Source: Thermosphaera aggregans DSM 11486
GTDB lineage: Archaea; Thermoproteota; Thermoprotei_A; Sulfolobales; Desulfurococcaceae
Reading direction: 5' to 3'
DNA length: 64,000 nt
Assembly: GCF_000092185.1 (NCBI RefSeq)
Contig: NC_014160.1
Span: 496,001-560,000 of the forward strand
Shown here: piece after piece, positions 40,297 to 58,193 of the stretch
Numbering within the stretch: the stretch's first letter is position 1
How the letters are laid out: each line of letters starts with the position of its first letter
Translations under genes and position numbers: made by a program
The notes under the pieces: generated by a model
What the model was told of the DNA's origin: nothing
The model's database searches: none
What the model saw: only the letters and a program-made list of their open reading frames with translations

Positions 40297-40383
40297 TGCA
40301 CTAGAAGAAACTCTTTGACGAAAGCCACATTAATTAAATGATTTCACCGGAACTATATCATTGTTTTAGCAGAACATTTAAGC

Positions 40384-40755: not shown

Positions 40756-40847
40756 CCCATGCTTCTACTTACATAGTGCTCGAGGCAGAGATAAAGCCGC
40801 GTAAAACCCGGTTGACTCCGAGGAAACTTGAAATACTACATGTGGCT

Positions 40848-41399: not shown

Positions 41400-42296
41400 T
41401 TACAACCCCTCTATAAACCTCCTATATGTCGAGACCATGTCTTTTAGGCAATCAGGCACAGGTGGGAGAGACAAACCCAGCACTCTGGCCTTCGCCGTGT
41501 TGAGGCTTGAATCCCTCGGCCTCCTAGCTGGGAGATTAACCGATTCAAGAGGCCTCGGCTTCACGAGATTCTCGCCCACCCCCAACACCTCGGCGAATAG
41601 TCTAGCGAACTCGTATCTCGACAAGCGCTCTCCAGCAATGTGTAAGACCCCCGTGGGCTTTGTATCCACTAGTTTAGCCAGGATCTCGCTGAGGAACCTC
41701 GTATATGTCGGCGAAAGCCATTGATCAATGAATGCTTCAACATTCTCTCCTCTAAGCAGTCTCTCTAGTACTATCACTCCGAAGTTCTTCTTACCAGTTG
41801 GGCTATAACCATAGAGGCCGCTAACCCTGACTATGACGCTGTTCTTGGGTAGGATCGCTCTAACAGCTACTTCTCCCAGGAGCTTGCTCAGCCCATAATA
41901 ATTAACTGGTGCAGGTGTATCCTCCTCCCTGTAGAGTCCTTTTTCACCATTGAACACGTAGTCGGTGGACACATATATGAAGTAGTCCGTCTCCCGGCCC
42001 GCCCTTGCAAGGGCCTCTGTGCCGAGATAGTTGACTCTATATGCCTTCTCCTTGTTGACCTCGCATCCATCCACGTCGGTGTATGCCGCGGAGTGCACTA
42101 TTATGTCAGGCCTAACCTCCCTGACAACACTTATTATACTTTCAGGATCCTCTAGGTTTAACTTGATCCAAGCGGCTTCTAGTCCCGGCGGATTCTTCTC
42201 ATTGTATGTGGCGTAAACCTTGAACCCCTTGGATGAATAGGTCTCAGCAATCCAGTATCCTAGGAGGCCTGTGCCACCTGTTACTAGGACTCTCAT
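41400..42296 (-). CDS. rmlD: dTDP-4-dehydrorhamnose reductase
   Basis: The 298-residue short-chain dehydrogenase makes dTDP-L-rhamnose with NAD(P)H. It has the Rossmann VTGGTGLLGYW at the N-terminus, STDYVFNGEKG, and the catalytic YYGLSKLLGE (YxxxK). The longest frame starts eight codons earlier, but GGTGAAACC directly precedes the ATG at 42296, which also puts the nucleotide-binding motif at the usual place. It ends directly where rmlC begins. Confidence 0.94.
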   Translation of the reverse strand: MRVLVTGGTGLLGYWIAETYSSKGFKVYATYNEKNPPGLEAAWIKLNLEDPESIISVVREVRPDIIVHSAAYTDVDGCEVNKEKAYRVNYLGTEALARAGRETDYFIYVSTDYVFNGEKGLYREEDTPAPVNYYGLSKLLGEVAVRAILPKNSVIVRVSGLYGYSPTGKKNFGVIVLERLLRGENVEAFIDQWLSPTYTRFLSEILAKLVDTKPTGVLHIAGERLSRYEFARLFAEVLGVGENLVKPRPLESVNLPARRPRDSSLNTAKARVLGLSLPPVPDCLKDMVSTYRRFIEGL

Positions 42297-42329
42297 GGTT
42301 TCACCATTAAATTGATCCATTAGGGGGTT

Positions 42330-43346
42330 TCAATGCCTCCATGGGGTATCGCTTAATACATATACTTCGTCTACGAGCGGTCTCCACCACCATTCATTAC
42401 GGGTATACCACTCGATGGTCTTTGCTAGTCCCTCCCCTAGCTTAACAAGCGGCTTCCAGCCTAGCCCGAGTATTTTATTGCACTTCATTGCGTACCTCCT
42501 GTCCTCGCCTGGCCTCCCCTTCACGTAGACTATGTCTCTCGCTGGGTCTCTTCCCATGGACTCTACCACCCTATAGACTATTTCCCTCACTGTAGCTGAC
42601 TCGCTGGCGCATATGTTGTACACTTCTTGGTATCCCCCTCTGGTGAGTATTGTGTATAGTGCTCTCGCAGTGTCTTCAACGTAGAGCCAGTCTCTAACTT
42701 GTGATCCATCCCCGTAGATGGTGGCTGGTTTCCCGTGCAGTAGCCTTATAATAGTCCTCGGTATCAGCTTCTCGGGGTGCTGGTAGGGCCCGTAGTTATT
42801 GGAGGGCCTGGCTAATATGTACTTTAACCCGTATGTCCTGCCATAGGATTTAATCAATAAGTCGCCGGATGCCTTGGAGGCTGAGTATGGGCTGGATGGG
42901 TTTAGCGGCCATTTCTCGTCTGCTTCTCCCTCGACTCCGTATAGGTCTCCATATACTTCATCCGTGGACATGTGTAGTAGTCTATTAACGTCTAGTCTCC
43001 TGGAGACCTCGAGGATTGTGAATACTCCGTATATATTTGTCTGGAGGAATGGGGCTGGGTTGTTGATTGATCTATCCACGTGTGTCTCCGCCGCGAAGTT
43101 AACTATTGCATCGGCTTGGAACTCCCTTAACGCGTGTTCGAGGAGTTCCTCGTTGCATATGTCTCCCCGTATAAACTTTAATCGCTTGTTTTCCAAGAGG
43201 CCGTGGAGGTTTTCCAGTCTACCAGCATATGTTAGTTTATCGTATACGAGGACTTGTACGTCTTCATGGTTGCTCACTAGGTATCTCACAAAGTTGCTCC
43301 CTATGAATCCAGCACCACCCAAGACAGCTATTCTCAAGTCAACCAC
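42330..43346 (-). CDS. rmlB: dTDP-glucose 4,6-dehydratase
   Basis: The 338-residue extended SDR enzyme has the NAD motif LGGAGFIGSNFVR, the STDEVYGD loop with catalytic Asp and Glu, and YSASKASGD with the YxxxK pair. It converts dTDP-glucose to the 4-keto-6-deoxy sugar. It follows rmlA with no gap. Confidence 0.96.
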   Translation of the reverse strand: MVDLRIAVLGGAGFIGSNFVRYLVSNHEDVQVLVYDKLTYAGRLENLHGLLENKRLKFIRGDICNEELLEHALREFQADAIVNFAAETHVDRSINNPAPFLQTNIYGVFTILEVSRRLDVNRLLHMSTDEVYGDLYGVEGEADEKWPLNPSSPYSASKASGDLLIKSYGRTYGLKYILARPSNNYGPYQHPEKLIPRTIIRLLHGKPATIYGDGSQVRDWLYVEDTARALYTILTRGGYQEVYNICASESATVREIVYRVVESMGRDPARDIVYVKGRPGEDRRYAMKCNKILGLGWKPLVKLGEGLAKTIEWYTRNEWWWRPLVDEVYVLSDTPWRH

Positions 43347-44414
43347 CTAGAACTCTACAATACTGTTGTCAGATATAACCAGCCTGGCTTCTCCATGGTT
43401 CCCCCTTCGAGATTTGACAATGGATCTAGCTCCTATAATGCTATCCCTTAGCCTGAGAACCCCGATGTCCAAACTGGCCTCCTCGAGCACTAGGCTCCTG
43501 GAGAGAGAACCAGACAGTATCTTGGCCCCCTGCTCAATGGACGTGTAGTGCTCGATACTAGTGTCTTTCTCTACGACTACGTTTCTACCTATGTATGCTG
43601 GTCCATAGACTCTGCCCTCTACTACAGCCTCCTTCTCAACTATTGCTCTACCAATAACTTCCCCTCTGATATCGCCTTCAAATCTCTCATTTACATTATC
43701 TAGTAGTAGGTATAGTGCTTCGAGGAGCCCATTATATGTACCCACATCTTTCCACCAACCTGTTATCACGTCATATTCTACTTGGTAATTGTTATCTATA
43801 AACCACTGAATGAGCTCTGTGATCTCATACTCCCCCCTCCACGAAGGCTTTAATGTTTTAAATGCTTTAACGACGAGATCAGGGTCTCTAAACATGTATA
43901 CTCCCACGACGGCGAGATCTGAGACAAACTCCCTCGGCTTCTCAACAAGCCTAACCACCCTTCCATCTCTGAGGACTGCAACGCCGAATCTAGAAGGATC
44001 CTTCACTTTAGAGAGCAAGATGTATACGTCTGCATCTTTTTCTAAAAATCTTCTGACATTTTGTCTAACTCCTCTAGATAATATGTTGTCTCCGAGATAA
44101 ACAATGAATGGCTTGTCCAAGAATCCTTCTTCAATAGATAAATATATAGCGTGCGCGATGCCGAGTCTCTTCTCCTGGACAATATAGCTGAGCCTGTAAT
44201 TATTGGAGCCTTCTCCAAGAGCATCTTTAATAAGATCTTTGAAATACCCTACTACAACACCAATATCTTTAACACCAGAGTCCACGAGGTCGTCAATAGC
44301 GTATTGAATCATAGGCTTACCGAGCAGTGGAATAAGGTGTTTAGGCCTAGAGAACGTGAATGGTCTAAGCCTAGAACCCTCACCAGCAGCAAGAACAAGG
44401 CCCTTTAAATCCAT
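43347..44414 (-). CDS. rmlA: Glucose-1-phosphate thymidylyltransferase, long archaeal form
   Basis: The 355-residue protein has a nucleotidyltransferase domain (LAAGEGSRLRPFTFSRPKHL, then GDNILSRGV) and a C-terminal left-handed beta-helix of hexad repeats (VIGRAIVEKEAVVEGRVYGP). It makes dTDP-glucose from dTTP and glucose-1-P. The added beta-helix is typical of the long archaeal RmlA. It is the first gene of the rhamnose operon, with a TATA at 44451-44458. Confidence 0.93.
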   Translation of the reverse strand: MDLKGLVLAAGEGSRLRPFTFSRPKHLIPLLGKPMIQYAIDDLVDSGVKDIGVVVGYFKDLIKDALGEGSNNYRLSYIVQEKRLGIAHAIYLSIEEGFLDKPFIVYLGDNILSRGVRQNVRRFLEKDADVYILLSKVKDPSRFGVAVLRDGRVVRLVEKPREFVSDLAVVGVYMFRDPDLVVKAFKTLKPSWRGEYEITELIQWFIDNNYQVEYDVITGWWKDVGTYNGLLEALYLLLDNVNERFEGDIRGEVIGRAIVEKEAVVEGRVYGPAYIGRNVVVEKDTSIEHYTSIEQGAKILSGSLSRSLVLEEASLDIGVLRLRDSIIGARSIVKSRRGNHGEARLVISDNSIVEF

Positions 44415-44450
44415 ATAAGCATCCTCAAAGTACTCAATGAAAAGGAGAAA

Positions 44451-44458
44451 TATTTAAA
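44451..44458 (-). promoter_or_regulatory. TATA box of the rhamnose operon
   Basis: The minus strand reads TTTAAATA about 40 bases before the rmlA ATG, with purine-rich DNA upstream that fits a BRE. The four rml genes have no larger gap after it. Confidence 0.6.
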
Positions 44459-44549
44459 CATGTGCGAAACACAGCCATCTCTTATATTACTCCTCTCAGA
44501 TTTTAAATCGGAAGAAGTCTAATTAGTATCTAAATGTTGAGGGCAACTA

Positions 44550-45620
44550 TTAATCCTCTATAGTTAAGAGGTTTAAGTTCTTATAAGCCCAGTTCTCAAA
44601 GTATTTTTTAACGATGCGTCTAGCTGTGAAGAACACTGGAAGATCTCTTAGCGTTATTTTAACTAGTGGGGCTTTATAAATGTCTAGGAATACTCCTTGA
44701 TTCTTTAATCTCCTACCTAATCTTACCCCATCAACAACTACTCTTGCCTTAGTCTTCGCGAGGCTGCTAAACCCTGTTCTAGGTAGGAATAAAGTTATGA
44801 GGTTTCTCAGCGCGTGTAACAATACTACTTGTTTATACCTAGTATTAGTGATCTGAGTTAAAGCTACTCTATTCCTCTCACCTAAGTAAGTTGAAATAGT
44901 GCTCTTCCCCCTACCAAAAGTTAGCCCCCTTGCATGACTAGCTATGACCTCCGGTATAGCTATTAATCTGCAGCCGCAACTCCACAACATTAATCCAAGT
45001 ACATTGTCATCACCATATCCGAAAAACTCATTAATAAACAGCTTGCCACCAGTACACTTCAATAGGCTTTCAACTCTATAGAGTGAGCAACAACCATCAG
45101 CATACGTCACGTAGATCGGCTTGCGTAAAGTCCACGGATACACTTGATTATTTCCAAGAGGATGTGTTAGTAGTAATTCATCAACATAGTCTCCAGCAGT
45201 ATCTATGAGTCTAGACCCATACTTCAATACAACACCCTGTAATCCAGCAATACCACTATAGTTTTCAGCGTATTCAACTAGAACTCTAAGACCCTCTTGA
45301 AACAACACCGCATCATTATTCAGTAAAAGCACATATTTACTCTCCCTATCCCTAGCTATAAAGCCAATATTATTCCCACCAGTGAAGCCGAGGTTATAGT
45401 CTAACTTAATAATCTTTCTTCTAAGATTACTTTTCCTCTCAAGAAACTCCTTAATCTTCTCAAAGCTACCATCAGTAGAACCATTATCAACAACTATAAG
45501 CTCATACCTATCACTAGGGTAGTCAATGCTTGCAATGGATTCGAGGGATTGTAGCACTAGTGGTAGTATCTTCATAGAGTTGTGGTTAAGCCAGATGATG
45601 GAGATTTTTGGGTAAGCCAT
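44550..45620 (-). CDS. GT2 glycosyltransferase (rhamnosyltransferase-like)
   Basis: The 356-residue protein starts with the GT-A fold ISIIWLNHNSMKIL, then VVDNGSTDGS and LLLNNDAVLF, where NDA is the metal-binding motif. The variable acceptor domain and basic helices follow. The NNDA form is common in rhamnosyltransferases of surface polysaccharides, and the rml operon is next, so rhamnose transfer is plausible but inferred. C-terminal hydrophobicity is weak, so it may attach to the membrane peripherally. Confidence 0.85.
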   Translation of the reverse strand: MAYPKISIIWLNHNSMKILPLVLQSLESIASIDYPSDRYELIVVDNGSTDGSFEKIKEFLERKSNLRRKIIKLDYNLGFTGGNNIGFIARDRESKYVLLLNNDAVLFQEGLRVLVEYAENYSGIAGLQGVVLKYGSRLIDTAGDYVDELLLTHPLGNNQVYPWTLRKPIYVTYADGCCSLYRVESLLKCTGGKLFINEFFGYGDDNVLGLMLWSCGCRLIAIPEVIASHARGLTFGRGKSTISTYLGERNRVALTQITNTRYKQVVLLHALRNLITLFLPRTGFSSLAKTKARVVVDGVRLGRRLKNQGVFLDIYKAPLVKITLRDLPVFFTARRIVKKYFENWAYKNLNLLTIED

Positions 45621-45698
45621 ATATCATCAAATCCTCAAAACTAGACAAATGTGCAGTGATATAAAAAGTTGTGTGGGGTTTTAGCTATAGCTATCTTC

Positions 45699-47159
45699 TT
45701 ACCTTGTCTTATTTATCTCTACTATGTATATATTCGATGTTGTACCTCTATAAAGAAGCTCTACTCTCACACTCTCTATACCTATATAGAATTGTTTGTA
45801 TTCCTCTCCTAGTTGTAGAGCTAGCGTTGTATTATAGAGATCTGGTTTCTCTCTAAACGTCTCCAGATCTCTACTCATATTGGTAGAGGTTACTGTGATT
45901 ATTTTCGATAAGTTGTTTTTAGCTATGTAAGCTATAGACATTATCAATGTAGGTTCTCTGCTTAATGGTACAATGTTTGTAGGGTTCCTCATATATAGGT
46001 GGATCTGTGGATACAAGCCTAAGCTAACTAGTACTACCCCTTCCTGTAAAGCTATAATCTCTGCAATCTTCTCCACATCACTTAAGTTCTTTAGAGCTGG
46101 CTCTAGTTTCCACGGGTACCCAGATGCTCGATCTAGTGGCGTCTTTGCCCATATCCTGAAGTGTTCAAATCCGTTTTCTGTGAACGGGTATGCGGAACCT
46201 AGGAGAACGATTGGAATAGTTGCTATTGCTAGGATATTTTTGTTTATTCTAGTCAAACCTGCTACTATATAGGGGGTTGTAATGGATAAGAGTATTGTAA
46301 ACCACCTGTGCTGATCGGTTGGGGCTATAACACATAGCGCTGGTGCAATGAATGCTAGGAATAGAAGTGCTATTGTTAGCTTAGTCCTCACATTTATAGA
46401 CCTCCATATAGTGGCTATAGTTATTGATGGTGATAGGAGGAGTAGACATGTGATTGTATAGTTGAGTGCTGTAGCAGGGTTATACTCTATATTTCCAGCT
46501 ACATAAACCCCACTAGGAGTCAACGCCATTACGGGTGTCTGTGGAAACCGTACATACCACAGTAACACTAGTAGTGTAAATATGAGTGTAGCCGAGAACA
46601 GCAACTTCTTCTTACCCTTGGCAAGCAGGGTCTCAGCTATAGATAGGAACAATGCTAGAACAGCTACTGGTTCATATGCTAATGCCCCTAAGACGAGTAT
46701 AAAGGCTCTATGCAGGTGTTTCGCCTTAGACTCGCAGAAGTAGAGATAAGCCGTGAGAAGCACTAACCCGAGCACATGCCTATGCCACTGCTGACTCTGC
46801 CCAAGCACATAGGGGTTGAAAACGGTTAGCAAAGCCGCTGTAATGGCTATTACCTTAGACTCTGTAAGTCTATGTGTGATCATTGCTGATAACATTGATA
46901 ACAAGCCAACCATGATTGGTGGATATACCTTGAAGAAGAGCTGTGGATCTATGCCGAGGACTGCTAGAGATCCTGGAATCCATGTTAGTAGTGGAGGTAG
47001 GTTTCTCCAACCCCCTAGCCATATGTATCTTGTCAAGAGCTTCGACTCGTAGGCGAAGTCTCTTGCATTAGACATGTATTCAAGGGTGTCCCAGCCTACT
47101 GGTAGACTTGGGTATTTTAGTTCTGGGTATAGTCTTACCGTGAAGCAGGGCTTAAACAT
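45699..47159 (-). CDS. Polytopic membrane protein, GT-C glycosyltransferase-like, apparently N-truncated
   Basis: The 486-residue protein has about 10 hydrophobic segments and a C-terminal soluble part. It shares blocks with the protein at 59793-61793: GWDT-EY, GG-RN-PPLL and FKVYP. In that longer protein about 190 residues with several membrane helices precede GWDT; here only about 22 residues do. GT-C enzymes need the first helix before the catalytic loop, so the 5' end looks lost. In-frame TAG stands two codons before the ATG. A possible transposon tail adjoins at 47172-47297. It may be a non-functional or altered transferase. Confidence 0.65.
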   Translation of the reverse strand: MFKPCFTVRLYPELKYPSLPVGWDTLEYMSNARDFAYESKLLTRYIWLGGWRNLPPLLTWIPGSLAVLGIDPQLFFKVYPPIMVGLLSMLSAMITHRLTESKVIAITAALLTVFNPYVLGQSQQWHRHVLGLVLLTAYLYFCESKAKHLHRAFILVLGALAYEPVAVLALFLSIAETLLAKGKKKLLFSATLIFTLLVLLWYVRFPQTPVMALTPSGVYVAGNIEYNPATALNYTITCLLLLSPSITIATIWRSINVRTKLTIALLFLAFIAPALCVIAPTDQHRWFTILLSITTPYIVAGLTRINKNILAIATIPIVLLGSAYPFTENGFEHFRIWAKTPLDRASGYPWKLEPALKNLSDVEKIAEIIALQEGVVLVSLGLYPQIHLYMRNPTNIVPLSREPTLIMSIAYIAKNNLSKIITVTSTNMSRDLETFREKPDLYNTTLALQLGEEYKQFYIGIESVRVELLYRGTTSNIYIVEINKTR

Positions 47160-47171
47160 GAACTAGAAGCC

Positions 47172-47297
47172 ATGCTCGCAGGGTTTAAGCCAATCTGCGA
47201 ACGAGATTAGAGCCCCGGGAAACCCCCGGTAGCAGACCTATGCTTCGAGTAGGAGTAGGGCCTGGTAGAGGAGGGGTCTACGGCTCTAAATCCCTGA
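47172..47297 (+). other. Broken 42-codon frame with GC hairpin, possible transposon (TnpB) tail
   Basis: From ATG 47172 the frame has TAG at codons 13, 27 and 29 yet the pieces (SPGKPPVADLCFE, GLVEEGSTALNP) read protein-like and Pro-rich. CCGGG...CCCGG at 47215-47229 can form a hairpin. Archaeal IS605-type TnpB genes often end in such tails overlapping their guide RNA. I cannot verify this. It directly adjoins a membrane-protein gene that lacks its 5' end. Confidence 0.25.
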
Positions 47298-47330
47298 TGC
47301 AACGTGAGAAAAATAAGCAAGTTTAGAGAG

Positions 47331-47340
47331 TTATTATATA
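47331..47340 (+). promoter_or_regulatory. TATA-like element before the small Cys protein
   Basis: TTATTATATA is followed about 25 bases later by codons that read as the N-terminus of the next gene, though no start codon is visible there. Confidence 0.35.
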
Positions 47341-47407
47341 GGGGTGGTCTACGAGTCCCTCGTACAGGGTTAGAGTATGTGTTAAGGAGGTTAAAGGGAG
47401 CTGCGCC

Positions 47408-47719
47408 ATGGACTATAAACTAGGCGACTGCTTCACCGTGGAGAAGTTCTACGTTTCTGACGCAGAGAAGGGTATATGTATACACGCACTAAGCTCAATG
47501 CTAACACTACTATCACCACTCCTCAAAGGAGTATCGGCAAAAGTTCTCGGTATAGGTGAGCAGGATGACGTCGGCTATGTTCAGTGTCCAGACCCTGGGA
47601 GACCCCTTACTTGTGGTATGGTGTTGCCCGAGTATTTACTAGTAGCTCTTCCTCGTTATCCTAGAGACTATTTTCTCCCCTATGTCACGCCTCGATGTAA
47701 AGTACTTGGCTATGTTTAA
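47408..47719 (+). CDS. Small protein resembling TIGR04076 family, probably damaged at its 5' end
   Basis: The 103-residue frame from ATG 47408 contains LGDCFTVEKFYV, GICIHALSSMLTLLSPL and YVQCPDPGRPLTCG, which look like the TIGR04076 family of small Cys-containing proteins of unknown role. In-frame codons before the ATG (from 47363) read YRVRVCVKEVKGSCA, which matches how such proteins begin, but no ATG, GTG or TTG is found there. So the natural start may be lost. The last 27 codons lie antisense to the nucleotidyltransferase gene and may not be native. Confidence 0.45.
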   Translation: MDYKLGDCFTVEKFYVSDAEKGICIHALSSMLTLLSPLLKGVSAKVLGIGEQDDVGYVQCPDPGRPLTCGMVLPEYLLVALPRYPRDYFLPYVTPRCKVLGYV

Positions 47720-48520
47720 TAGTGTACCCCTGAGTAGTGGGTCGTTTACTAGTTTACCCATGTATGCTCTAAGCATTATACTTGGCTTAAGCCTACACGG
47801 TGCTTCTACGAGGTTGTTCCTAATGAGGCTACATGTCTCTAGTAGCATCTCCAAGGACTCCTCAACACGATGTTCTGCAGCTATATTCCATGCTCTCTTA
47901 TTAAGCCAACTCCACGCCACTAGGCAGTCCATTAGTAGAACCAAGTGCTCCTTGTAAACAGCGTGTGCAGCGGCAACAGCTACCTCGGCCTCCCTACTCA
48001 GAGCCTTCGCGACTAAATCTCCAACATCAACTTCTTCAACACAGCAATCTAAGAGACCCCCACCATCCATGTAGACAACCCAGGCGAAGGAGGGGTGCGT
48101 GTAGAGGTCTACGATAAACCCACCCCTATCAAGGGTGGCCGTGTATGGTTCCCAGACAACGACTTTGAATCCCCTGGAAACCAAGGCTCTAACAGCCCTG
48201 GGAACATCCTCAACTCTAACAAGTATGTCTAGGTCTACAGAGACGTGTTCAAAAGGCCTCCTAAACTTATACAAGGCGTATGTAGCCCCAATGCTCTCCA
48301 GAACCCCGACAACCTCGGCAGCGTTCCTAGTAAACCACCTGTACCTGGCTTCCTCGTGAACAAGTTCATCCCACAAAGAATCCCCAACTCTCCTGAGGTA
48401 GGCTAAGTAGAGCTTATTCAACTTAGCAACCCCGGCAAACCTCTCAACCTCCTTACCACTAGGACTGTACGAGCCGAGCAGAGTCTTCAATAGCTTTACC
48501 GTGTCCGTTTCTCGAGACAT
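47639..48520 (-). CDS. Nucleotidyltransferase-like protein (NTP_transf_5 type)
   Basis: The 293-residue protein has VSVDLDILVRVEDVP in the middle, a D-x-D metal motif as in the PF14907 group of uncharacterised nucleotidyltransferases, followed by FIVDLYTHPSF with a further Asp. The C-terminal half is helical. Members occur in polysaccharide and lasso-peptide clusters with no settled function. Its start overlaps the end of the upstream kinase-like gene by 25 bases, suggesting the two are made together and may modify a common sugar-lipid or nucleotide. Confidence 0.65.
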   Translation of the reverse strand: MSRETDTVKLLKTLLGSYSPSGKEVERFAGVAKLNKLYLAYLRRVGDSLWDELVHEEARYRWFTRNAAEVVGVLESIGATYALYKFRRPFEHVSVDLDILVRVEDVPRAVRALVSRGFKVVVWEPYTATLDRGGFIVDLYTHPSFAWVVYMDGGGLLDCCVEEVDVGDLVAKALSREAEVAVAAAHAVYKEHLVLLMDCLVAWSWLNKRAWNIAAEHRVEESLEMLLETCSLIRNNLVEAPCRLKPSIMLRAYMGKLVNDPLLRGTLLNIAKYFTSRRDIGEKIVSRITRKSY

Positions 48521-49122
48521 CTAATCACCTCAGCCACAACCCTAACAGGCTCACTCCTACCAGTGTCAATAGAGCACTTAGCGAAGTACCTAGCAAGAAT
48601 ATTGTAAATAGCGAGCTCCCTAACAATAAATTCTCTTGCAACATCAGCCCTCCTAGCAAGAGTATCAACATCAGCATAGAGATAAACAATATTGCCCCTA
48701 GAGACAAGTCTAATAAGAAACCTGCCAATCAAAGTATTGAGGATCCAGGGAGCATCAAGAGTAGCAATGAGCCAGACAACGAAGTCGAGCAAACCGCGAT
48801 CATAAACAACAACCTTGCAAACCCTCTTAAGCAGAAGCCTTGCAAAGAGATGGGGAAGGAGAGAGGCAAACTCGAGAAAAACCCAAAAACCCTTCAACTC
48901 CTCAGGAACACAAATACTGTAGTAAGGATTACAAGAACCACGAAAAGACTTGAAGTTGTGGAGAAACCTGGCAAGAACAGAGGCAAAAAGATGGGACCCC
49001 CTAAACCAATGAACACATACATCGCCATACCTAGAGAAGCACGGCAACAAAAGCTTAGTGGTAGTAGTCTTACCAGAACCATCAGCACCTGAAATGGTCA
49101 TATATATGTTCTTTTTAGTCAA
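48496..49122 (-). CDS. Thymidylate-kinase-like P-loop protein
   Basis: The 208-residue protein has Walker A SGADGSGKTTTTK near residue 11 and VVVYDRGLLDF in the place of the DR-x motif of thymidylate kinases. Helical regions between are more hydrophobic than in housekeeping Tmk. In glycan clusters such proteins may phosphorylate a sugar, lipid or nucleotide; a true dTMP kinase role supporting dTDP-rhamnose synthesis is also possible. It overlaps the nucleotidyltransferase-like gene by 25 bases. Confidence 0.65.
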   Translation of the reverse strand: MTKKNIYMTISGADGSGKTTTTKLLLPCFSRYGDVCVHWFRGSHLFASVLARFLHNFKSFRGSCNPYYSICVPEELKGFWVFLEFASLLPHLFARLLLKRVCKVVVYDRGLLDFVVWLIATLDAPWILNTLIGRFLIRLVSRGNIVYLYADVDTLARRADVAREFIVRELAIYNILARYFAKCSIDTGRSEPVRVVAEVIRCLEKRTR

Positions 49123-49187
49123 TGCTTTTACACTCTATATGCAATTCCTTAGTGAGTTATACCTTAGCATTTTTATGCAGCTCATCT

Positions 49188-50249
49188 CTATCTTTGTATA
49201 CCCCTTAAAAACTTCCATATATCGCCACTATATGGAACCATATACCTTCGAATGTCCCTATCTTTTCTAACTCTTAAGCTTTGCACTAAGGCTCTTTTTC
49301 TCACGATTTTCCTAAGGTTCTTGAGTATGTATATCAAGGCTCTAATAATTTGAACTCCATATACGTTTTGCCTTGTGAGAAAGAAGTACATAGCTGTTAA
49401 TATGTACTCTATGGTTGTAACAAAGAGTGCTATGAGCATGTTACGAACTTCGTAGTTCTTTACTAGCATAATTAGCCTATTATGTTTGATGAGATAGTAA
49501 AACTCCGGTTTAGCTCTTGGTGCCCCCATCTTCTCTCTACTGCTACCACCGCCTTTATGATAAATAATTGATTGAGGTACGTAAACAACCTTATACCCTA
49601 TTAAATAGAGTCTCCAGCCAAGATCTATATCTTCATATCCAAATAGAAATGAAGTATCAAAGCCTCCAACTTTAAAGAAAGTATCCCTCCTAAAAATAGT
49701 GCTAACCCCAAACTCGTATGTAAGTTTATCGTATTGACCGTAGTCAATTTCTCTTACACCCCGTGTGTAATTGTTACCAAAATAATCTATCCATCTACCT
49801 GCTGCAGCCGCATCATCAAATCTGTTACGCTCGTAGAAATTCATATACTTCGCGTCTGCAGCGGCCACCCAAGGCATTTTCTCTAAGATCTCAACTAAAG
49901 GCATAAGCCAGTTCTCATCAGCCTCAATATCATTATTTAGTAAAGCTACGTACTTACCCTTAGCAATGATAGCTCCTGCCATAAAGCCTCCAGCCGCATA
50001 TATGTTTTTACTGAGCCTAACTATCTTTACCGTGGGGTAGTTCTGCTGAACAAACTCTACACTTCCATCTGTAGACCCATTATCAACTAGTATAATCTCA
50101 AAGTTAGGATACTTAGTTCGTAACAATGAGTCTAGACACGTCTTTAAATGGTGCTTCCCGTTATAGTTCAGAACAACTATACTAACTAGTGGATACCTCT
50201 CCTTATTAACCTTATTAACATCACTACTAGTATTATTAGCATCAATCAT
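49188..50249 (-). CDS. GT2 glycosyltransferase (rhamnosyltransferase-like)
   Basis: The 353-residue protein has SIVVLNYNGKHHLKTCLDSL at the N-terminus, LVDNGSTDGS, and ALLNNDIEADENW with the DxE metal motif. FGYEDIDLGWRLYLIGY is the usual acceptor-side ED motif. C-terminal helices are basic and hydrophobic. The N-terminus has an extra 20 residues rich in Asn and Asp. It resembles family GT2 enzymes that add rhamnose. The P-loop kinase gene ends 13 bases upstream of it. Confidence 0.87.
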   Translation of the reverse strand: MIDANNTSSDVNKVNKERYPLVSIVVLNYNGKHHLKTCLDSLLRTKYPNFEIILVDNGSTDGSVEFVQQNYPTVKIVRLSKNIYAAGGFMAGAIIAKGKYVALLNNDIEADENWLMPLVEILEKMPWVAAADAKYMNFYERNRFDDAAAAGRWIDYFGNNYTRGVREIDYGQYDKLTYEFGVSTIFRRDTFFKVGGFDTSFLFGYEDIDLGWRLYLIGYKVVYVPQSIIYHKGGGSSREKMGAPRAKPEFYYLIKHNRLIMLVKNYEVRNMLIALFVTTIEYILTAMYFFLTRQNVYGVQIIRALIYILKNLRKIVRKRALVQSLRVRKDRDIRRYMVPYSGDIWKFLRGIQR

Positions 50250-50262
50250 AGCCTCACCTAGA

Positions 50263-50937
50263 TCACTTTAAATAAAGGTACTTGATATCAACATTAATTT
50301 TATGTTCTTTGCATACCTGGACAAATAGGTTAAAGAAGTATCTGACGAGAATAGCGAATCTAGCATCATAAGGAGTTACATGCCCTCTTCTACGCCAAAA
50401 CAATGTTAACTTTTCCCGGCTTCTATCAATAAAGTATACACGAATCCTGCTTACTCTCGATAAAAAGCGTAGAAACATAATATCGAGCCTCATAAGCATC
50501 TCAACATGTCTCGGCATAAACGCTTTCTTACGAATCATTAGATTATAATAGTTTGCCCACCCCAGAGAGAACCACTCATCAATGACAACATTCCTACACA
50601 TTAATGCTAATATGATGAATAAAAAGAACCTTACAAACTTATAGATCGCCTCCAGCAAAAAATCGATGAAAGCTATTCTCTTTAGGAGCCCTGAACTAAT
50701 AAGTAGTATGGGGTCTCTCCTCTCACGCTTTAATACCTGCATAGTTTTAAGATCCTCAGAAACCTTCATAACACTAAGCACGCTCACAGAAAGTATTACT
50801 CGAAGTAGAAGCTCTGCAAATAAGTTCAGGAAACCAAGACGCTTAAAACCATAAACCTTGAAACTAAACCTTCTAGCTAAGAACACTACTATCGTTGATT
50901 TTCCGGAGGCAGGAGGACCATCAATAATTATTATCAC
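50263..50937 (-). CDS. P-loop kinase-like protein
   Basis: The 224-residue protein starts IIIIDGPPASGKSTIVVFLA with a Walker A and has VVIDEWFSLGWANYY in mid-protein. Long hydrophobic helices (FVRFFLFIILALM) suggest membrane contact. It is only distantly like thymidylate kinases. It starts with GTG that overlaps the stop of the upstream broken frame (GTGA), so in the past the two were translationally coupled. It is the second such kinase in the island. Confidence 0.6.
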   Translation of the reverse strand: MIIIIDGPPASGKSTIVVFLARRFSFKVYGFKRLGFLNLFAELLLRVILSVSVLSVMKVSEDLKTMQVLKRERRDPILLISSGLLKRIAFIDFLLEAIYKFVRFFLFIILALMCRNVVIDEWFSLGWANYYNLMIRKKAFMPRHVEMLMRLDIMFLRFLSRVSRIRVYFIDRSREKLTLFWRRRGHVTPYDARFAILVRYFFNLFVQVCKEHKINVDIKYLYLK

Positions 50938-51498
50938 GCAATAACCACCGTAACACTTACAAGGCTAAAGATATGTCTGGAATCAGCCGCATGGTCGGAT
51001 ATCTTGCAAATGGCTCTATAGTTTAAGCACTTTGTAAGTCTCTTCAATACAAATAAAATTCCTCTAACTCTATCTAAATAAGCCTTACATGGTACTAAGA
51101 ATAGTTTTCTTCTAAATGTTTCCTCCATATCTCTTAAATCAAACATTAACAGCTCTTTACCTGCAACAGTAACAACCTTTCCCTCCATGCAACAGCATCT
51201 ACAAGATGATTATAGTTTGCAGATGTTAGGTCTATGTGTAGAGGGTACCAGTGAAGCAGATCCTTTGAAACTAGAATAGCTATTGGTACCCTAAGCAACC
51301 AATGTAGTAATCATCAAATCTCGTTATGGATGTGAACCGTATGTATCGATAACCATCAACTTTCAAGGATATCGTCTCAGCTTGTTTTCACCAACGTTGT
51401 ATATGGGTTGCACCACTCCCTGCGATATAGTAGTCAAAGCTAAATATACGCTTATCCCTCTCCATAAGCATAGACATGATCTGCGCAGCATTCTGCAT
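50934..51498 (-). pseudogene. Eroded gene readable only across several frames
   Basis: Starting at ATG 51498 (MQNAAQIMSMLMERDKR) the protein-like reading switches frame at least three times: SFDYYIAGSGATHI, then YNVGENKLRRYP, then LKVDGYRYIRF and SITRFDDYYIG, then VPIAILVSKDLLHWYPLHID and ANYNHLVDAVAW, and finally EGKVVTVAGKELLMFDLRD within the 84-codon frame that ends at 50934. No complete frame exists. The family is not recognised. It ends coupled to the start of the P-loop kinase gene, so it was once part of this operon. Confidence 0.55.
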
Positions 51499-51573
51499 AG
51501 AAGACTCCAACCAGTCCCATAATTATGGAAACTTATTACAGGTGAGGTTAGCATAACTAAAGTATTTAACTTC

Positions 51574-51857
51574 CTAATGCAGGGCGTATTTGTTAACGAG
51601 TACATGACAAAAGAATTTTTCAAGAACTCTTCTTTTCTTTAAGAGCCTAGCATAGATCTTTCGAGCTTTAATAGCATGCCTTAAATGTTTAGTAATTAGT
51701 CTTGTAATTACAAGTATTATAACCCTTCTTTGTATGGCAGGGCCTTTGATGAAGTGAAACAACATAACTATTGCACTAAGTAGTAATGCTTTAATTAGAT
51801 ATGATCCATAGAAATACTTTAGGATGTTTAACACTCTGTTCTTATTAATAAAGTAAA
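51574..51857 (-). pseudogene. Detached C-terminal part of the GT2 gene after a frameshift
   Basis: In a different frame, directly following the GT2 gene, the codons read FINKNRVLNILKYFYGSYL, then hydrophobic and basic helices to a stop at 51574. This is the usual membrane-associated C-terminal region of GT2 enzymes (a NRxxxxxK-like block). One added T in the T5 run at 51855-51859 would join TLF-YF-INKNRV in a single frame. Confidence 0.65.
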
Positions 51858-52580
51858 AAGTGTGATAGGGTTAAGACTATGTATCTTTGAAATTGTTCCC
51901 GAAACAAAGTGAATGTAGCTTGTGTAAGTGCAACCAAGGATTTTAAAACCTAAGGCTCTAAATCTAAAACCTAAATCAGCTTCATCGTAGTATAAGAAAT
52001 AATCCGATGGAAAACCGCCGACAGATTCAAATACATCTTTTTTAATGAGGAGAGCAGCTCCAAAAGCAAATAATGTTTCGGAACAAGTCTTAGCAAATCT
52101 AGTATTTTTGGGTAGTTGCGGCAGAATATCAACACTATACCCAGCTTTATTTAGTGTTCCTCCAACTTTAATACGTTTCCTCGTAGGCTTTATTTCAAGG
52201 CCTTGTATAGCTACTGCATCAGGATTCTGCTTTAGAATCTCAATAAGCTTTGCAACGTAATCCCTAGATAAGATTGCATCAGGGTTTTGGAAAAGCACAT
52301 ACTTTGCATCGCTACTTATGTATCTTAGTGCCAAGTTGTTTCCAAGACAATAACCGTAATTCTTCGCGAGCTTTACAACCTTGACTTTATCGCCATACTT
52401 GTTCCTAATATATTCGTATGTATCATCAGATGAGTTATTGTCTACTACTAGAAGCTCGATATTGGGATAGCTCTGGTTAAGAGCACTCTGAACGGCTTTA
52501 TCTAGGATATCTCCTAATGTAGATTTGGCGTTATATGTTAGAATCACTATAGAGACCTTTGGCGATGCGGAATAATTCAT
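51828..52580 (-). CDS. GT2 glycosyltransferase, C-terminus cut off by a frameshift
   Basis: The 250-residue frame has VSIVILTYNAKSTLGDIL, VVDNNSSDDTYEYI and FQNPDAILSRDYV with the metal-binding PDA, then FLYYDEADLGFRFRALGFK. The catalytic domain is complete, but the frame ends with LLIRTEC shortly after, where homologous proteins go on for about 80 residues. Those residues are present in the next frame down to 51574. Its start overlaps the deacetylase stop by 4 bases, so it is the tail gene of a coupled operon. It could be a sequencing error, a real mutation or a slippage site. Confidence 0.8.
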   Translation of the reverse strand: MNYSASPKVSIVILTYNAKSTLGDILDKAVQSALNQSYPNIELLVVDNNSSDDTYEYIRNKYGDKVKVVKLAKNYGYCLGNNLALRYISSDAKYVLFQNPDAILSRDYVAKLIEILKQNPDAVAIQGLEIKPTRKRIKVGGTLNKAGYSVDILPQLPKNTRFAKTCSETLFAFGAALLIKKDVFESVGGFPSDYFLYYDEADLGFRFRALGFKILGCTYTSYIHFVSGTISKIHSLNPITLFTLLIRTEC

Positions 52581-53230
52581 CCTAGCAATTCCTTCACAGT
52601 ATAGAACCTTGCATTAAAAATCTTCCTAAAGATATTTAACATCGTTGTTATGAGCCAAGGTTCCTCATCATGAAAGACCAAGATTATTTTGACCTCTTCA
52701 GCTTTCATTGCTGAGTTAGAAAGCAGTTTTAGAGCCGCGTAAAAGAGGGATTTAGGGGCTAGGCGACATAAAGTATATCTATCGTGCCCATCTATACGTG
52801 AAGTATAAACCAACTTCTTGCAACTCTTTATATGTTTTAAGTGAACCGTTACGGCATATTCGTAATACTGCTTAACCAAATCTATTATTTTACTGTTATA
52901 AAAGCCGTAAGGGTAGGCGAAGCCATACACCTCGCGTCCTGTAGCTTCCTCCAATAACTCCTTTGAATCCCTGACCTCTCTCAAAACTTCGTTATAGCTT
53001 GCACTCGAAAGATTTATATGCCTGCAACCATGAATTCCAATTTCATGTCCCATTCTTGAAATCTCTTTAACTTCCTGCAACGATAACAAAGGTTCAGCAT
53101 CTACAGGATGTTTTTCTAAACACGTCGGAACGAAGAATGTTGTTTTAATGCCTCTTGAAGCTAGGAGTGCGGCTACATAGTACTGTCTTTTGTACGCATC
53201 ATCAAACGTTACTGCAATCTTCATTCTCAT
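52577..53230 (-). CDS. Polysaccharide deacetylase (CE4, NodB homology)
   Basis: The 217-residue protein has VTFDDAYKRQY with the catalytic Asp pair (D10, D11), EIGIHGCRHINLSS with metal His residues, and FAYPYGFYNSKII. These are the CE4 motifs in order. It should remove N-acetyl groups from an amino-sugar glycan. No signal peptide is seen, so it may act on a lipid-linked intermediate on the cytosolic face. It lies 6 bases after one GT2 and overlaps the next by 4 bases. Confidence 0.85.
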   Translation of the reverse strand: MRMKIAVTFDDAYKRQYYVAALLASRGIKTTFFVPTCLEKHPVDAEPLLSLQEVKEISRMGHEIGIHGCRHINLSSASYNEVLREVRDSKELLEEATGREVYGFAYPYGFYNSKIIDLVKQYYEYAVTVHLKHIKSCKKLVYTSRIDGHDRYTLCRLAPKSLFYAALKLLSNSAMKAEEVKIILVFHDEEPWLITTMLNIFRKIFNARFYTVKELLG

Positions 53231-53236
53231 AACGCC

Positions 53237-54274
53237 TCAAACCATCTTTTTGTCGTAGAGAGGTTTAACTATGATGTAGGATACCAGCGCTAAAGCTCTT
53301 AGCACCCTACTTAATAGAATTGCAGGGCCTGCGAGAATCCTTAGTATTAGGGTAGTGTTTTGGGGATATACTATTAATGAATACAATGATGATGAGAATA
53401 CCATTATGAATAGTAGTAACAATGTTACTATAGTCGAATATAGGCTCGTTAACATCAGTGCAAAGGGTATGAGCATATATATCACGTATTCTAGCTTGTA
53501 CTTCAGCGGTGCAATCTTAAGGACTTCGTAAAGTGCGTATGCCTTCCTAAGGCTAGTATACAAAACAAAACGTTTCAATGTTTGCTTAACTAATCTTAGC
53601 TTTGAGCTTTTAGAGTGACTGCTCCCTGCAGGCACAAATTTGATATGAAGCAAAGGCTCTCTACCATCTATCAATACCTTACATCCATGCTTGCGGATTC
53701 TCATAATATACTCTAAATCCTCATATATTGTCTTCGGATACCCTAGCTTTTCATTGAAGAACCCAACCCTCTCAAAAACCTCCCACTTAACAAGCAGTGC
53801 ACCAGTACCTGCAGGACCTTCAGCTATCTTACCTAAATACCTACACCACATAACTTTCTCAAATAGCGAAGGATTAGATGTTAAGCATAGCCCTCCTACA
53901 GCACCTATTCTTGGATCACTTTCAGCTAATTCAATCAGTTTAGTAAGTGTAGTGGGATTCAATACGACATCGCTATCCAAGAACATTAAGTAAGAACCTG
54001 GTAAAGCTCTTTTAATACCCTCATTACGTACTTTCGATGTAGTTTCTCTCTGGCTTAATCTGACAACTTCTATAGAATGAAATTTCTCCTCATATTTCTG
54101 CTTGAATTCCATAGCTATCTGCGGGCTTGTATCGGTGGAAGAGTCATCAACAATAACAATCCTTATATATTTATGAGGGTATTCAAGCCTTAGGAGGGAA
54201 TCTAAAACTAGAGGTAGGGTTTTTTCAGAGTTATAGACAGGTATAATGATGGTTATGTACTTAATCTCCTTCAA
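53237..54274 (-). CDS. GT2 glycosyltransferase with C-terminal membrane helices
   Basis: The 345-residue protein has ITIIIPVYNSEKTLPLVLDS, VDDSSTDTSPQ and FLDSDVVLNPTTL with the DSD metal motif, then YPKTIYEDLEYIMRIRKHG. Several hydrophobic segments near the C-terminus (LIPFALMLTSLYSTIVTLLL) should place it in the membrane. It overlaps the upstream GT2 by 4 bases and precedes the deacetylase by 6 bases. Confidence 0.87.
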   Translation of the reverse strand: MKEIKYITIIIPVYNSEKTLPLVLDSLLRLEYPHKYIRIVIVDDSSTDTSPQIAMEFKQKYEEKFHSIEVVRLSQRETTSKVRNEGIKRALPGSYLMFLDSDVVLNPTTLTKLIELAESDPRIGAVGGLCLTSNPSLFEKVMWCRYLGKIAEGPAGTGALLVKWEVFERVGFFNEKLGYPKTIYEDLEYIMRIRKHGCKVLIDGREPLLHIKFVPAGSSHSKSSKLRLVKQTLKRFVLYTSLRKAYALYEVLKIAPLKYKLEYVIYMLIPFALMLTSLYSTIVTLLLLFIMVFSSSLYSLIVYPQNTTLILRILAGPAILLSRVLRALALVSYIIVKPLYDKKMV

Positions 54275-55287
54275 TTATTTACACCTTTGCGTAAAAGTTT
54301 ACGCAGGAACATCTCTTGTCGTAAACCATGTAAGTGTCCAACGGAATAACCTACTCGTCTATAGAAATAGAGTAGGGGTAAAAAGAATGCTTCAAGAGAT
54401 GTACATGCTTGTACCTTAGTCATAAGTATTGTAACTGAATTAATGATAGATGTATTTAAGGTGTACTGAGTTTGTATCATTCTCGATATAGAACATTTGT
54501 TGCCATACGTACTGAATAGATACATCACTATTTTCCCGTATTCCCATGTTACTGCCTGCCTAAACCATGCCCTAAGGCTGTCCCTTGTAAAGTAATACAA
54601 CGTTGAATTAAATGGTCTCATTTTGTAACCATTACTAATCAGCTTAAGGAACACATCAATATCTTCTGCCGCAACCAAATATGGATTAAACCCTCCAACC
54701 TTACGTAGTGCTTCAATATTACAGAAGGTCCCTTGCGCAGGAGTGTAAGGTAACATCCTCTGTATAGGATCTTCTAATCGCTCACTTAACAACTTTTTTG
54801 CTATAGCGAAAAGCTTGCTATTGCTTTGGCATGCTAAGACCTTACCATAACAAGCTATTAGCCTTGAAGCAAAGTTTCTCTTCTTAAGAACAGAAATAGC
54901 TCTTTGAGGATATAACACCGCAATGTTTTCGTGATTTATTTTCTCTATTTCCTTAACGGCTTTTAACACATAGTCTTGTGCTAAGACATTGTCACTATCT
55001 ATCCAAAGGATCCAGTCTCCCTGTGCTTCTTTTAAGGCAAGGTTTCTTGCATAGCCTACACCAACACCTTCTTGAAGAATTATATGCCTAGTGAATTGGC
55101 TTAGGAACCTTTCTTTAAGTTTTTGAATCTCTTCAGCTACAATCTTGAGTGTGTTATCCTTGGAGTAACCATCAACAACTATTAGCTCAAAGGCTACATT
55201 ATCTGGGATTTTCTGTCTATAGACAGATCTTAGTGCAAACCTTACAGTGTCTTCAGAATTCTTTGTGAGAAGGGCTATGGTCAACAA
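54271..55287 (-). CDS. GT2 glycosyltransferase
   Basis: The 338-residue protein has TIALLTKNSEDTVRFALRSV, VVDGYSKDNTLKIVAEE and WILWIDSDNVLAQDYV (DSD metal motif), with VGGFNPYLVAAEDIDVFLKL as the acceptor-side ED block. The C-terminal third is basic with weak hydrophobicity. It follows the polytopic gene by 6 bases and overlaps the next GT2 by 4, inside a tightly packed operon. Confidence 0.86.
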   Translation of the reverse strand: MLTIALLTKNSEDTVRFALRSVYRQKIPDNVAFELIVVDGYSKDNTLKIVAEEIQKLKERFLSQFTRHIILQEGVGVGYARNLALKEAQGDWILWIDSDNVLAQDYVLKAVKEIEKINHENIAVLYPQRAISVLKKRNFASRLIACYGKVLACQSNSKLFAIAKKLLSERLEDPIQRMLPYTPAQGTFCNIEALRKVGGFNPYLVAAEDIDVFLKLISNGYKMRPFNSTLYYFTRDSLRAWFRQAVTWEYGKIVMYLFSTYGNKCSISRMIQTQYTLNTSIINSVTILMTKVQACTSLEAFFLPLLYFYRRVGYSVGHLHGLRQEMFLRKLLRKGVNN

Positions 55288-55293
55288 CTTTGG

Positions 55294-57069
55294 TTACACT
55301 TTAAAGACGATTTCATCCTCGAAATTAATTACAATGCTATAGTTTGCTACGGATATACTAAGATTGCTTGGATCAACTACATTAATATTAGTCATTGGTG
55401 CATCCCCTATTGTGCATCCGCGTATATAGAGCATCTTATACAAAGCGTCGCCAAATCTGCTATAAACCATTGCTATATGACCCCCATAAGTTGTCAACCT
55501 TTCAAAACGCAGAGAATACTTCGAGAAAAACATTAAATCATTAAAGTCCTTAATTTCACCCACCAAATTAACAGTAATGTTCGCTTTCACTATATCGCTT
55601 TGGGTTGTTACCATAGTGAGTGCTTCCTCTGGTATGCCCCTAGACTTTAATCTGTACAGAGGTGATATCTCTGGATCTCTTGTAGCTAGGAAGGAGCTGA
55701 AAGCTAGGATGAACACAATTATTAAAGCTAAGGATCCCTTCCTGGAGTTAATAACTCTTCTAATAGCCTCAGCAGCTAGAGGTATAAAGAACGAAAAAGC
55801 TACATAGGCACCTCTATACAGTTGTGTTGAGACAGCAGTAAGTATTGCTAAGAGATAGCCTAGACCGACGAATAGAGCCCCAGCAACATAAAACGTCAGC
55901 ATGATTATATCTATGCTATTCCTTAACACGTTGTAAGCAACGATTGCTGTCGCTGACGAAGCTGTTAAAGCCCATAAAAACGCCTGATAAAAGGGTATAT
56001 CTTGGTAGTCGTACAATGATAACTTAAATCCTATACTTTCCTCCCCAGTAAACAAGGTTAATAGCCTGGTTATCAGACCCTCGACACCACTATAACCCAA
56101 GCTATACACATACTTAGCATACAACTCTTCGTAGGCTACTCTAAAGATCCCGAGAGCAAGGAAAATTATGATAGCGTTTGTCACAAGTGGAGGGATCTTT
56201 AAGTTCACTTCTTTTCTTTCAAATACGAGCTTTAGTAAGGCGAACATTAATGGAAATACTATTACAACATAAGCTGTTGCATGAGTCAATATCGCTGCAA
56301 CATAAAGCAGTATTATCGGTATGAAATCTGTTCTCCTTGGTCTTTCCAATGTTTTTATAAGTATTGCTATGCTTAAGAGCCACATAATGGTTGCAGGAAC
56401 TTGATAAGCATGACCTGTTACTACAAGGTATGGTGTCAAAGCACCGATTATTACCGCAAGTATTGCGATGTTATGGCTCGAAGTTGTTCTTAATGTCAAG
56501 CTGTACACTGCTAAGTCGAATGCTAGTGTAGTAATTAGCAACATTATATATGCCACGAACCAGCTAAACCAAGGAATACCTGTGATATAGGAAAGTGCAG
56601 CACGGAGAAAAGCCATTGTTGGAAAGGGATTATATGAGGGGTTATGTGCTAGTTCAGGGATCCACTTACCATATATAACCATGGTTCTGGTCATGTGAAC
56701 TCCCTCGGTTATAGATAGCAGATCTGGCGGCATTGTAAGACCTAGCAGTAGCAGGTGCCAAAGTAATACTGTGGCAAACATTAATTTAGGTTCAGAATCC
56801 ATTGCTAATAGTGACACTATTGTTGCTAGCACTATGGTAGCAATAATGGTTTGGAAGGCATAATCAATTCTGCCTAGAAGCAGCAAGACGTTGCTGATTA
56901 TAAGGATTATGTAGAGAAAGATCATTATTGTAAATAGAGCTTTCTTAGAAATGTTAAGTTTCGTGTTTATGTGACTTTTCTTCTCTGAAGCTATGAGGAG
57001 TAGAAGGAATAGCAAAGTCTGAATAACAAAGAACACTGGGATTGCTCTGCTAAATGTCAGCGTTATCAT
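55294..57069 (-). CDS. Large polytopic membrane protein, GT-C or polymerase-like
   Basis: The 591-residue protein has about 12-13 hydrophobic segments. A loop near residue 125 reads SITEGVHMTRTMVIYGKWIPE followed by NPSYNPFPTMAFLRAAL, the kind of extracytosolic loop that carries the acidic catalytic residue of GT-C transferases. A soluble C-terminal part of about 110 residues follows the last helix. It may transfer sugars from polyprenol phosphate or polymerise repeats. It overlaps the GT4 gene by one base. Confidence 0.6.
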   Translation of the reverse strand: MITLTFSRAIPVFFVIQTLLFLLLLIASEKKSHINTKLNISKKALFTIMIFLYIILIISNVLLLLGRIDYAFQTIIATIVLATIVSLLAMDSEPKLMFATVLLWHLLLLGLTMPPDLLSITEGVHMTRTMVIYGKWIPELAHNPSYNPFPTMAFLRAALSYITGIPWFSWFVAYIMLLITTLAFDLAVYSLTLRTTSSHNIAILAVIIGALTPYLVVTGHAYQVPATIMWLLSIAILIKTLERPRRTDFIPIILLYVAAILTHATAYVVIVFPLMFALLKLVFERKEVNLKIPPLVTNAIIIFLALGIFRVAYEELYAKYVYSLGYSGVEGLITRLLTLFTGEESIGFKLSLYDYQDIPFYQAFLWALTASSATAIVAYNVLRNSIDIIMLTFYVAGALFVGLGYLLAILTAVSTQLYRGAYVAFSFFIPLAAEAIRRVINSRKGSLALIIVFILAFSSFLATRDPEISPLYRLKSRGIPEEALTMVTTQSDIVKANITVNLVGEIKDFNDLMFFSKYSLRFERLTTYGGHIAMVYSRFGDALYKMLYIRGCTIGDAPMTNINVVDPSNLSISVANYSIVINFEDEIVFKV

Positions 57070-58193
57070 TACTGAGCAACCTCAATATATAGATCCACCA
57101 GTTTCTTTGCTACTTCACTCCATGTGTATGGCTTTTCAACGATTCTAAACATGTCAATGTTATTAAGTACATATGTTATTCCCTTTGCTAAGCTGTTAGC
57201 ATCAGCGTTTACAACTATTCCCTCAACCGCGTTCTTTATCCTATACGGTAAAGCTCCATAGTTTGTTACCACTAATGGCTTTCCTCGCGCCTTCACCTCA
57301 TCGATTATTATGGAGTAGTTTTCTCCTGCATGCCTTGAGGGTATGACAACCAGTTCTGATGCATCTATAAGTCCTATCTTATCTTCTTCTGGTATGTAGC
57401 CCAGGTACCTAATCTTGTTGTGTATGCTAAGCATTTTCGCTATGTTCAGGCATTTCCTAAGGTACTTCTCATCTCCTTTGCCAGCTATAACAAGCTTGAG
57501 GTCGGGTTCTGTTTTTACGATCTTTGCAAATGCTTTTATTAGGAGGTCTACACCTTTTGTTAGGTGTATCCTGCCTATGTATGAAATGATTCTTCCATCT
57601 ACATTGTACTTGTTTCTGAGGTATTTTGCCATGTTAGGTAATCTGAAGTATATCTCGTCTACTCCGTGAGGAATCACGAAGGAGTCTAGACCATACCCAG
57701 CCTTAAGCAGTTCCTTCTCAAACTCATTAGTTGTGAAAGGTGTATCCACTATCTCTGCAAGCCTCTTTGTGAGTGTTCTCTGATACTGAAAGCCTAGCAA
57801 CTTAAACAATGGATTGTAATGGCGCTGCAAATAATCCACACCTATAAAGTACATACCCACAGGTTTTCCATGATTCTTAGCCTCCTTAACCATCCTATAT
57901 ACAAAGTAGTATGCGTGACCCCAACCAACAACTATATCAGCATTTTTCAAAACATCCCTGGGTATTTCCCTTGGAACTATGAGGTAAGGATAGGGATTCT
58001 TCCACGACTTGACCCTAACAACTGTAATAAGGCCCTTCTCAACCCTAGGCCTATCCTCAGCATAAGCATCAGAAGTAACAACCGTGACCTCATGACCTAC
58101 CTTGGCCTGCTCCTCAGCAACCCTCTGAACAGCTCTCTCAAGACCACCAACAAATGGAAAGAAAAGTGTAGATACATGAACTATCCTCAACAT
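57069..58193 (-). CDS. GT4 glycosyltransferase
   Basis: The 374-residue GT-B enzyme has the N-terminal FFPFVGGLERAVQRVAEE, SYIGRIHLTKGVDLLIKAF at the start of the nucleotide-sugar domain, then VIAGKGDE and the E-x7-E block GENYSIIIDEVKARGKPLV, in which Asp replaces the second Glu. It should use a nucleotide sugar with retention. It is the first gene of the packed run down to 51574. A TATA-like TTATAAAG lies about 70 bases before its ATG. Confidence 0.88.
   Translation of the reverse strand: MLRIVHVSTLFFPFVGGLERAVQRVAEEQAKVGHEVTVVTSDAYAEDRPRVEKGLITVVRVKSWKNPYPYLIVPREIPRDVLKNADIVVGWGHAYYFVYRMVKEAKNHGKPVGMYFIGVDYLQRHYNPLFKLLGFQYQRTLTKRLAEIVDTPFTTNEFEKELLKAGYGLDSFVIPHGVDEIYFRLPNMAKYLRNKYNVDGRIISYIGRIHLTKGVDLLIKAFAKIVKTEPDLKLVIAGKGDEKYLRKCLNIAKMLSIHNKIRYLGYIPEEDKIGLIDASELVVIPSRHAGENYSIIIDEVKARGKPLVVTNYGALPYRIKNAVEGIVVNADANSLAKGITYVLNNIDMFRIVEKPYTWSEVAKKLVDLYIEVAQ

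Follow-up and report, generated by a model that had tools for sequence, protein, structure and literature searches.

The nearest described parallel to the gene considered here is the chitinase PF1234/PF1233 of Pyrococcus furiosus, which is reported to be split by one inserted nucleotide (PMC3575233). The likeness lies in a one-base change that, in a hyperthermophilic archaeon, interrupts a carbohydrate-active enzyme encoded by one unbroken frame in a relative; for the chitinase the authors infer that the mutation is very recent or that some selection persists (PMC3575233). The two cases differ in the enzyme, a hydrolase there and a GT2 glycosyltransferase here, and in that the effect of the chitinase split on growth on chitin was, by the same report, tested by genetics. 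A further archaeal carbohydrate-active enzyme gene that lies in two frames and needs a -1 shift is fucA of Saccharolobus solfataricus (PMC8037382; PMC8211752), the species of the one archaeal -1 case that a 2021 review counts (PMC8211752). As described, fucA has rare flanking codons, a putative stem-loop, and a heptamer of the canonical type (PMC8037382); in the split GT2 we find no such heptamer and no such downstream structure.

The gene lies in the Thermosphaera aggregans M11TL genome, a single contig of 1,316,595 bp, of which positions 496001-560000 (64,000 nucleotides; herein the window) were analyzed; all coordinates below are those of the window unless a contig is named. Its homologue in another genome (G005, locus L002) is 37-41% identical to it in the core and shares the GT-A domain and an NRNR-like segment, but occupies one continuous frame of 341 codons from stop to stop; the same domain and segment recur in the intact paralogue within the window (table 1), again in one continuous frame. 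Among the papers listed in literature searches, titles and abstract openings give nothing on this gene.

Table 1. Features of the split GT2 gene and its neighbors (window coordinates).
Feature	Position	Strand	Remarks
Polysaccharide deacetylase-like gene	52577-53230	minus	immediately upstream; 4-base overlap with GT2 start
GT2 glycosyltransferase, zero frame	51828-52580	minus	250 aa; catalytic GT-A domain complete, final 8 residues (TLLIRTEC) off-family
Interval bound to contain the frame change	51831-51870	minus	both frames open
Coding-strand T5 run (plus-strand A5)	51855-51859	minus	likeliest site of the change
GTG, one base ahead of the GT2 zero-frame stop	51832-51834	minus	formal start of a downstream 86-aa ORF
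GT2 C-terminal part, -1 frame	51574-51855	minus	93 residues and stop
Remnant in three frames, C-terminal third of an uncharacterized gene intact in G031	50937-51522	minus	composite match
P-loop protein gene	50263-50937	minus	224 aa, intact frame; kinase-like only by weak, sub-cut-off profile matches
GT2 paralogue, intact	49188-50249	minus	353 aa; internal yardstick

A frame change splits the GT2 gene

The zero frame ends in ...NPITLFTLLIRTEC and stops at 51828-51830; the -1 frame, which reads ...FYFINKNRVLNILKYFYG, stays free of stops from 51870 until it terminates at 51574, and a read-through of the two frames comprises 335 residues, with 242 before the break and 93 after it. An earlier sequence-only reading had proposed a single-base frameshift in the A5/T5 run, in a GT2 frame ending LLIRTEC, with an 80-residue C-terminus in the other frame. 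The coordinates that it gave for the run are exact, the zero-frame translation does end in these residues, and both a frame change and a family-like tail are present, but the tail is slightly longer than proposed and the location of the change can only be narrowed to 51831-51870: the exact changed base cannot be fixed, since equivalent changes anywhere in this interval lead to an identical frame change. The T5 run is nevertheless the likeliest place.

At the off-frame stop rate of the same strand (693 stops in 6,850 codons of nine window genes), 93 open codons would arise by chance with a probability of about 5e-5, and the longest off-frame open stretches in the same nine genes span 22-83 codons (18 values). 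Third-position G+C does not discriminate among the three frames of the tail (0.30, 0.38, and 0.26). When a C-terminus profile built from four relatives (L002, L004, L005, and L006) is searched against 1,736 window frames, only the intact paralogue (E=7e-12) scores better than the -1 frame (E=6e-4), and the frame in third place has E=1.2. Including the paralogue in the profile gives E=8e-4 for the -1 frame; a profile of all 12 relatives places it third (E=0.0037; next 0.33), after two paralogues that contributed to this profile.

The alignment comprises 13 relatives, namely 11 of the 20 loci found by protein search and two window paralogues; eight loci with weaker or N-terminal-only matches (L013-L020) were left out, and the remaining one (L001) is the gene itself. 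A natural end at the break, which the sequence-only reading had named as grounds against a frameshift, is seen in none of the 13; instead, 12 run on in a continuous frame for 70-136 residues beyond it, and the thirteenth (L003) reaches its contig end 56 residues after it. Continuity of the relatives where a gene changes frame, by which a pseudogene made by frameshift is recognized, is hence found in 12 of the 13. The read-through aligns across the break and beyond residue 270 with nine of the 11 loci (L002-L008, L011, and L012), as it does across the break with the paralogue at 49188-50249, and the segment FYFINKNRVLNILKYF after the break falls on the NRNR-like segment of the family (FYLANRNRIRIIVKNYE in L004, YYLIKHNRLIMLVKNYE in this paralogue). 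Replacing the 250-aa protein by the read-through raises the scores from 111 to 132 bits with L004, from 109 to 130 with L005, and from 95 to 104 with the same paralogue, and in whole-genome searches lowers E from 1.7e-28 to 5.9e-35 (G003) and from 3.5e-28 to 2.6e-34 (G037). Little or nothing is gained with four other genomes (G027, where the match meets a contig edge, G036, G020, and G038), with loci L009 and L010, or with the paralogue at 44550-45620. Many weaker GT2 matches span the N-terminal half only. Some distant ones have open frames of about 240-260 codons, but their similarity is confined to at most roughly the first 130 residues, and they lie outside the alignment. The alignment, profile, and open-frame tests bear out the splitting of a GT2 gene by a frameshift, and the proposal that an inserted base restores a C-terminus like those of other GT2 enzymes agrees both with the profile match and with the alignment across the break; they demonstrate a frame change with a family-like tail in the other frame.

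The retained domain and the displaced tail

The zero-frame product matches Pfam PF00535 (Glycos_transf_2) with E=7e-25 and 88.3 bits (cut-off 23.3) over profile positions 1-167 of 168, and its motifs DNNSSD, NPDA, and YYDEAD, which we take to be the acidic motifs of the GT-A site, are aligned with those of the relatives; there is no other visible damage in the catalytic domain. Against the rhamnosyltransferase model TIGR01556 it scores 53.9 bits over profile positions 21-203 of 281, far below the cut-off of 200.55; the match of the paralogue, also far below the cut-off, extends to position 261. Predicted structures built from three-row alignments reach a mean pLDDT of 57.4 for the truncated protein and 47.3 for the paralogue, values too poor to use.

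The tail is strongly basic, with a net charge of +19, and contains a single moderately hydrophobic segment (19 residues, Kyte-Doolittle 1.99); a Kyte-Doolittle value of at least 1.75 is reached past residue 200 in seven of the 11 relatives measured, and such tails may associate with the membrane. A short, 250-aa GT2 might still work, because complete enzymes of about 250 residues occur in other GT2 subfamilies (SpsA, with a chain of 255, and the TuaG profile, of 252).

The ratio of tail identity to core identity is 0.64 for the read-through (10 pairs) versus 0.61 with a standard deviation of 0.20 among intact relatives (45 pairs), after L003 (contig edge), L005 (a near-duplicate of L004), and L006 (start trimmed) had been dropped. 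The tail has hence drifted no more than those of intact relatives, and the break looks young for this reason; an undrifted tail nonetheless fits a young break, a sequencing error, and a still-translated tail alike and does not discriminate among them. A contig scan with the 250-aa protein, from which very near genomes may have been excluded, found no close relative by which the break could be dated, and in the same-genus genomes the best protein match of the split GT2 has E=2.3e-6 in G001, with none in G002.

A decayed neighbor and a variable glycan cluster

The split gene is surrounded by GT2 genes, GT4 genes, and a dTDP-rhamnose-type set, and it is adjoined directly downstream by the remnant listed in table 1, in which the part that matches the G031 gene spans about 51135-51459 and the rest consists of flanking open pieces. 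The composite, which was pieced together by eye prior to any knowledge of the G031 match, matches that gene with E=5.8e-6, and the 316-aa G031 protein (L033:934-1884) in turn finds the place of the remnant with E=7e-4; their alignment reaches 38.5 bits, whereas none of 100 shuffles exceeds 21.6. The match is confined to about the final third of the G031 protein, and the first part of the gene appears to be missing or unrecognizable. The family occurs in two of 61 genomes, T. aggregans included. A search of the genome for a second copy of the remnant DNA returned only the remnant itself, and among the matches listed for its pieces within the window there are only weak, short ones besides the pieces themselves. 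Neither the remnant nor its G031 relative has a Pfam match, and a tentative identification as a nucleotidyltransferase pseudogene was dropped on these grounds. A P-loop gene comes next after the G031 relative, as it does after the remnant, and is likewise kinase-like only by matches below the Pfam cut-offs. A shared gene order of remnant and P-loop gene was considered and rejected, the 224-aa protein having no match there at E 1e-3; the two P-loop genes show only a loose likeness.

The surroundings of the split gene differ among genomes of the genus. Between 40.3 and 57.9 kb the window has no DNA match in either same-genus genome (G001 or G002), a query of 38.0-57.9 kb matching them only within about 38.2-40.2 kb, whereas a query of 57.9-64.0 kb gives five matches in G001 (58.7-59.0, 59.2-59.5, 60.0-61.2, 62.6-62.8, and 63.2-64.0 kb) and none in G002. 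The G+C content is 0.36-0.40 over 50-58 kb and near 0.48 over 40-44 kb; the genome paper gives 46.7% genome-wide. The glycan stretch (about 40300-57900), with its low-G+C part at 50-58 kb, suggests lateral acquisition.

Similar clusters elsewhere offer several points of comparison. In G005 the nearest relative of the split gene (L002) is followed by relatives of the 208-aa P-loop protein and the 293-aa, weakly NTP_transf_5-like protein of the window; the gene order GT2, P-loop, weakly NTP_transf_5-like is common to window positions 47639-50249 (minus strand) and G005 L042:14288-17114, and this set may be a conserved unit. A GT2-like stretch interrupted by 11 in-frame stops is located about 2.4 kb from that closest relative, at G005:C1:671510-672256, so that at least one further cluster of this kind contains decayed glycosyltransferase genes. 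The glycan cluster of G031 (L043:6966-8651) contains three short open frames next to one another (208, 176, and 176 codons) that, by eye, look like broken glycosyltransferases.

Possible causes of the frame change

We consider it likely, though well short of certain, that the GT2 gene of this T. aggregans glycan cluster has undergone a recent loss-of-frame mutation, in which the loss of one base in or beside the short T run would most probably account for the single frame change. The resulting protein of 250 residues would retain the GT-A catalytic domain but end in eight wrong residues and lack the roughly 93-residue basic tail of the family; the frameshift, which we infer to be real in the strain and recent, would abolish or weaken the enzyme. 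Among the options raised by the sequence-only reading (sequencing error, phase-variable slippage, and true loss), true loss fits best, given the remnant next door, the variable surroundings, and the undrifted tail. Sequencing or assembly error, whereby the gene of the strain is intact and a short homopolymer was miscounted in the published sequence, is an unlikely alternative. Reads of the 454 type are prone to homopolymer miscounts, and the catalytic domain and the tail both look undamaged and undrifted. The draft was indeed made from 454 reads according to the genome paper, but the same paper reports that 360 Mb of Illumina reads improved the consensus, with an error rate of less than 1 in 100,000, and the run is only five bases long. 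On the coding strand, 30 T5 and four T6 runs are spread over 23 of the 46 long open frames of the window, the split GT2 included, and runs of five or more are hence common; an error is possible but made less likely by the Illumina-polished genome. The abundance of such runs also bears on phase variation, whereby the enzyme would be switched reversibly by changes in the length of the T run. Bacteria offer classic examples of phase-variable genes among their surface-glycan glycosyltransferases. Here, however, we find no positive evidence for phase-variable slippage, and the 7-mer CTTTTTA occurs four times in three long open frames, namely the split GT2 and two whose frames are open; of the explanations weighed, this one seems to us the least likely.

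The tail could also still be translated. Recoding, either by ribosomal -1 frameshifting or by RNA polymerase slippage on the T run, would yield some full-length enzyme and would agree with an undrifted tail and with a frame change of the -1 kind, as in the Saccharolobus fucA gene, which is described as being expressed via -1 frameshifting at the slippery site A-AAA-AAT (PMC8037382). Among the 13 zero-frame heptamers in the vicinity of the overlap, however, there is none of the form X XXY YYZ. Folding of the 95 downstream bases does not exceed that of shuffled sequences (z +0.70; equalled or bettered by 153 of 200 shuffles), a large proportion of bacterial genomes are reported to avoid slippage-prone A/T runs from a length of nine bases upward (PMC1088944), and the 12 aligned relatives whose ends are visible all lack the frame change. 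Recoding therefore strikes us as improbable, and we are equally doubtful of a non-canonical -1 shift at the short T run by which both a short and a full-length GT2 are made, although if true it would be the second archaeal case of -1 recoding by the count of the 2021 review (PMC8211752), and one without the classical heptamer. Translation as two coupled cistrons, with the 250-aa catalytic piece and the GTG-started tail forming a split enzyme, has in its favor the position of the GTG, the overlap of the two ORFs by seven bases, and again the undrifted tail; we see, by eye, no Shine-Dalgarno-like sequence ahead of the GTG, the 12 relatives with visible ends are not split in this manner, and we hold the arrangement to be very unlikely.

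Gene loss by frameshift, the reading that we prefer, is an ordinary and already familiar kind of event, of which this gene is a new instance; the genome paper lists 23 pseudogenes. The locus would illustrate clearly how genes turn over in a glycan cluster of an archaeon, in which a freshly broken glycosyltransferase stands beside a more decayed remnant, within a stretch that is absent as DNA from two same-genus genomes. It also constitutes an annotation trap, as the 250-aa product resembles a full GT2 domain and might be annotated as functional.
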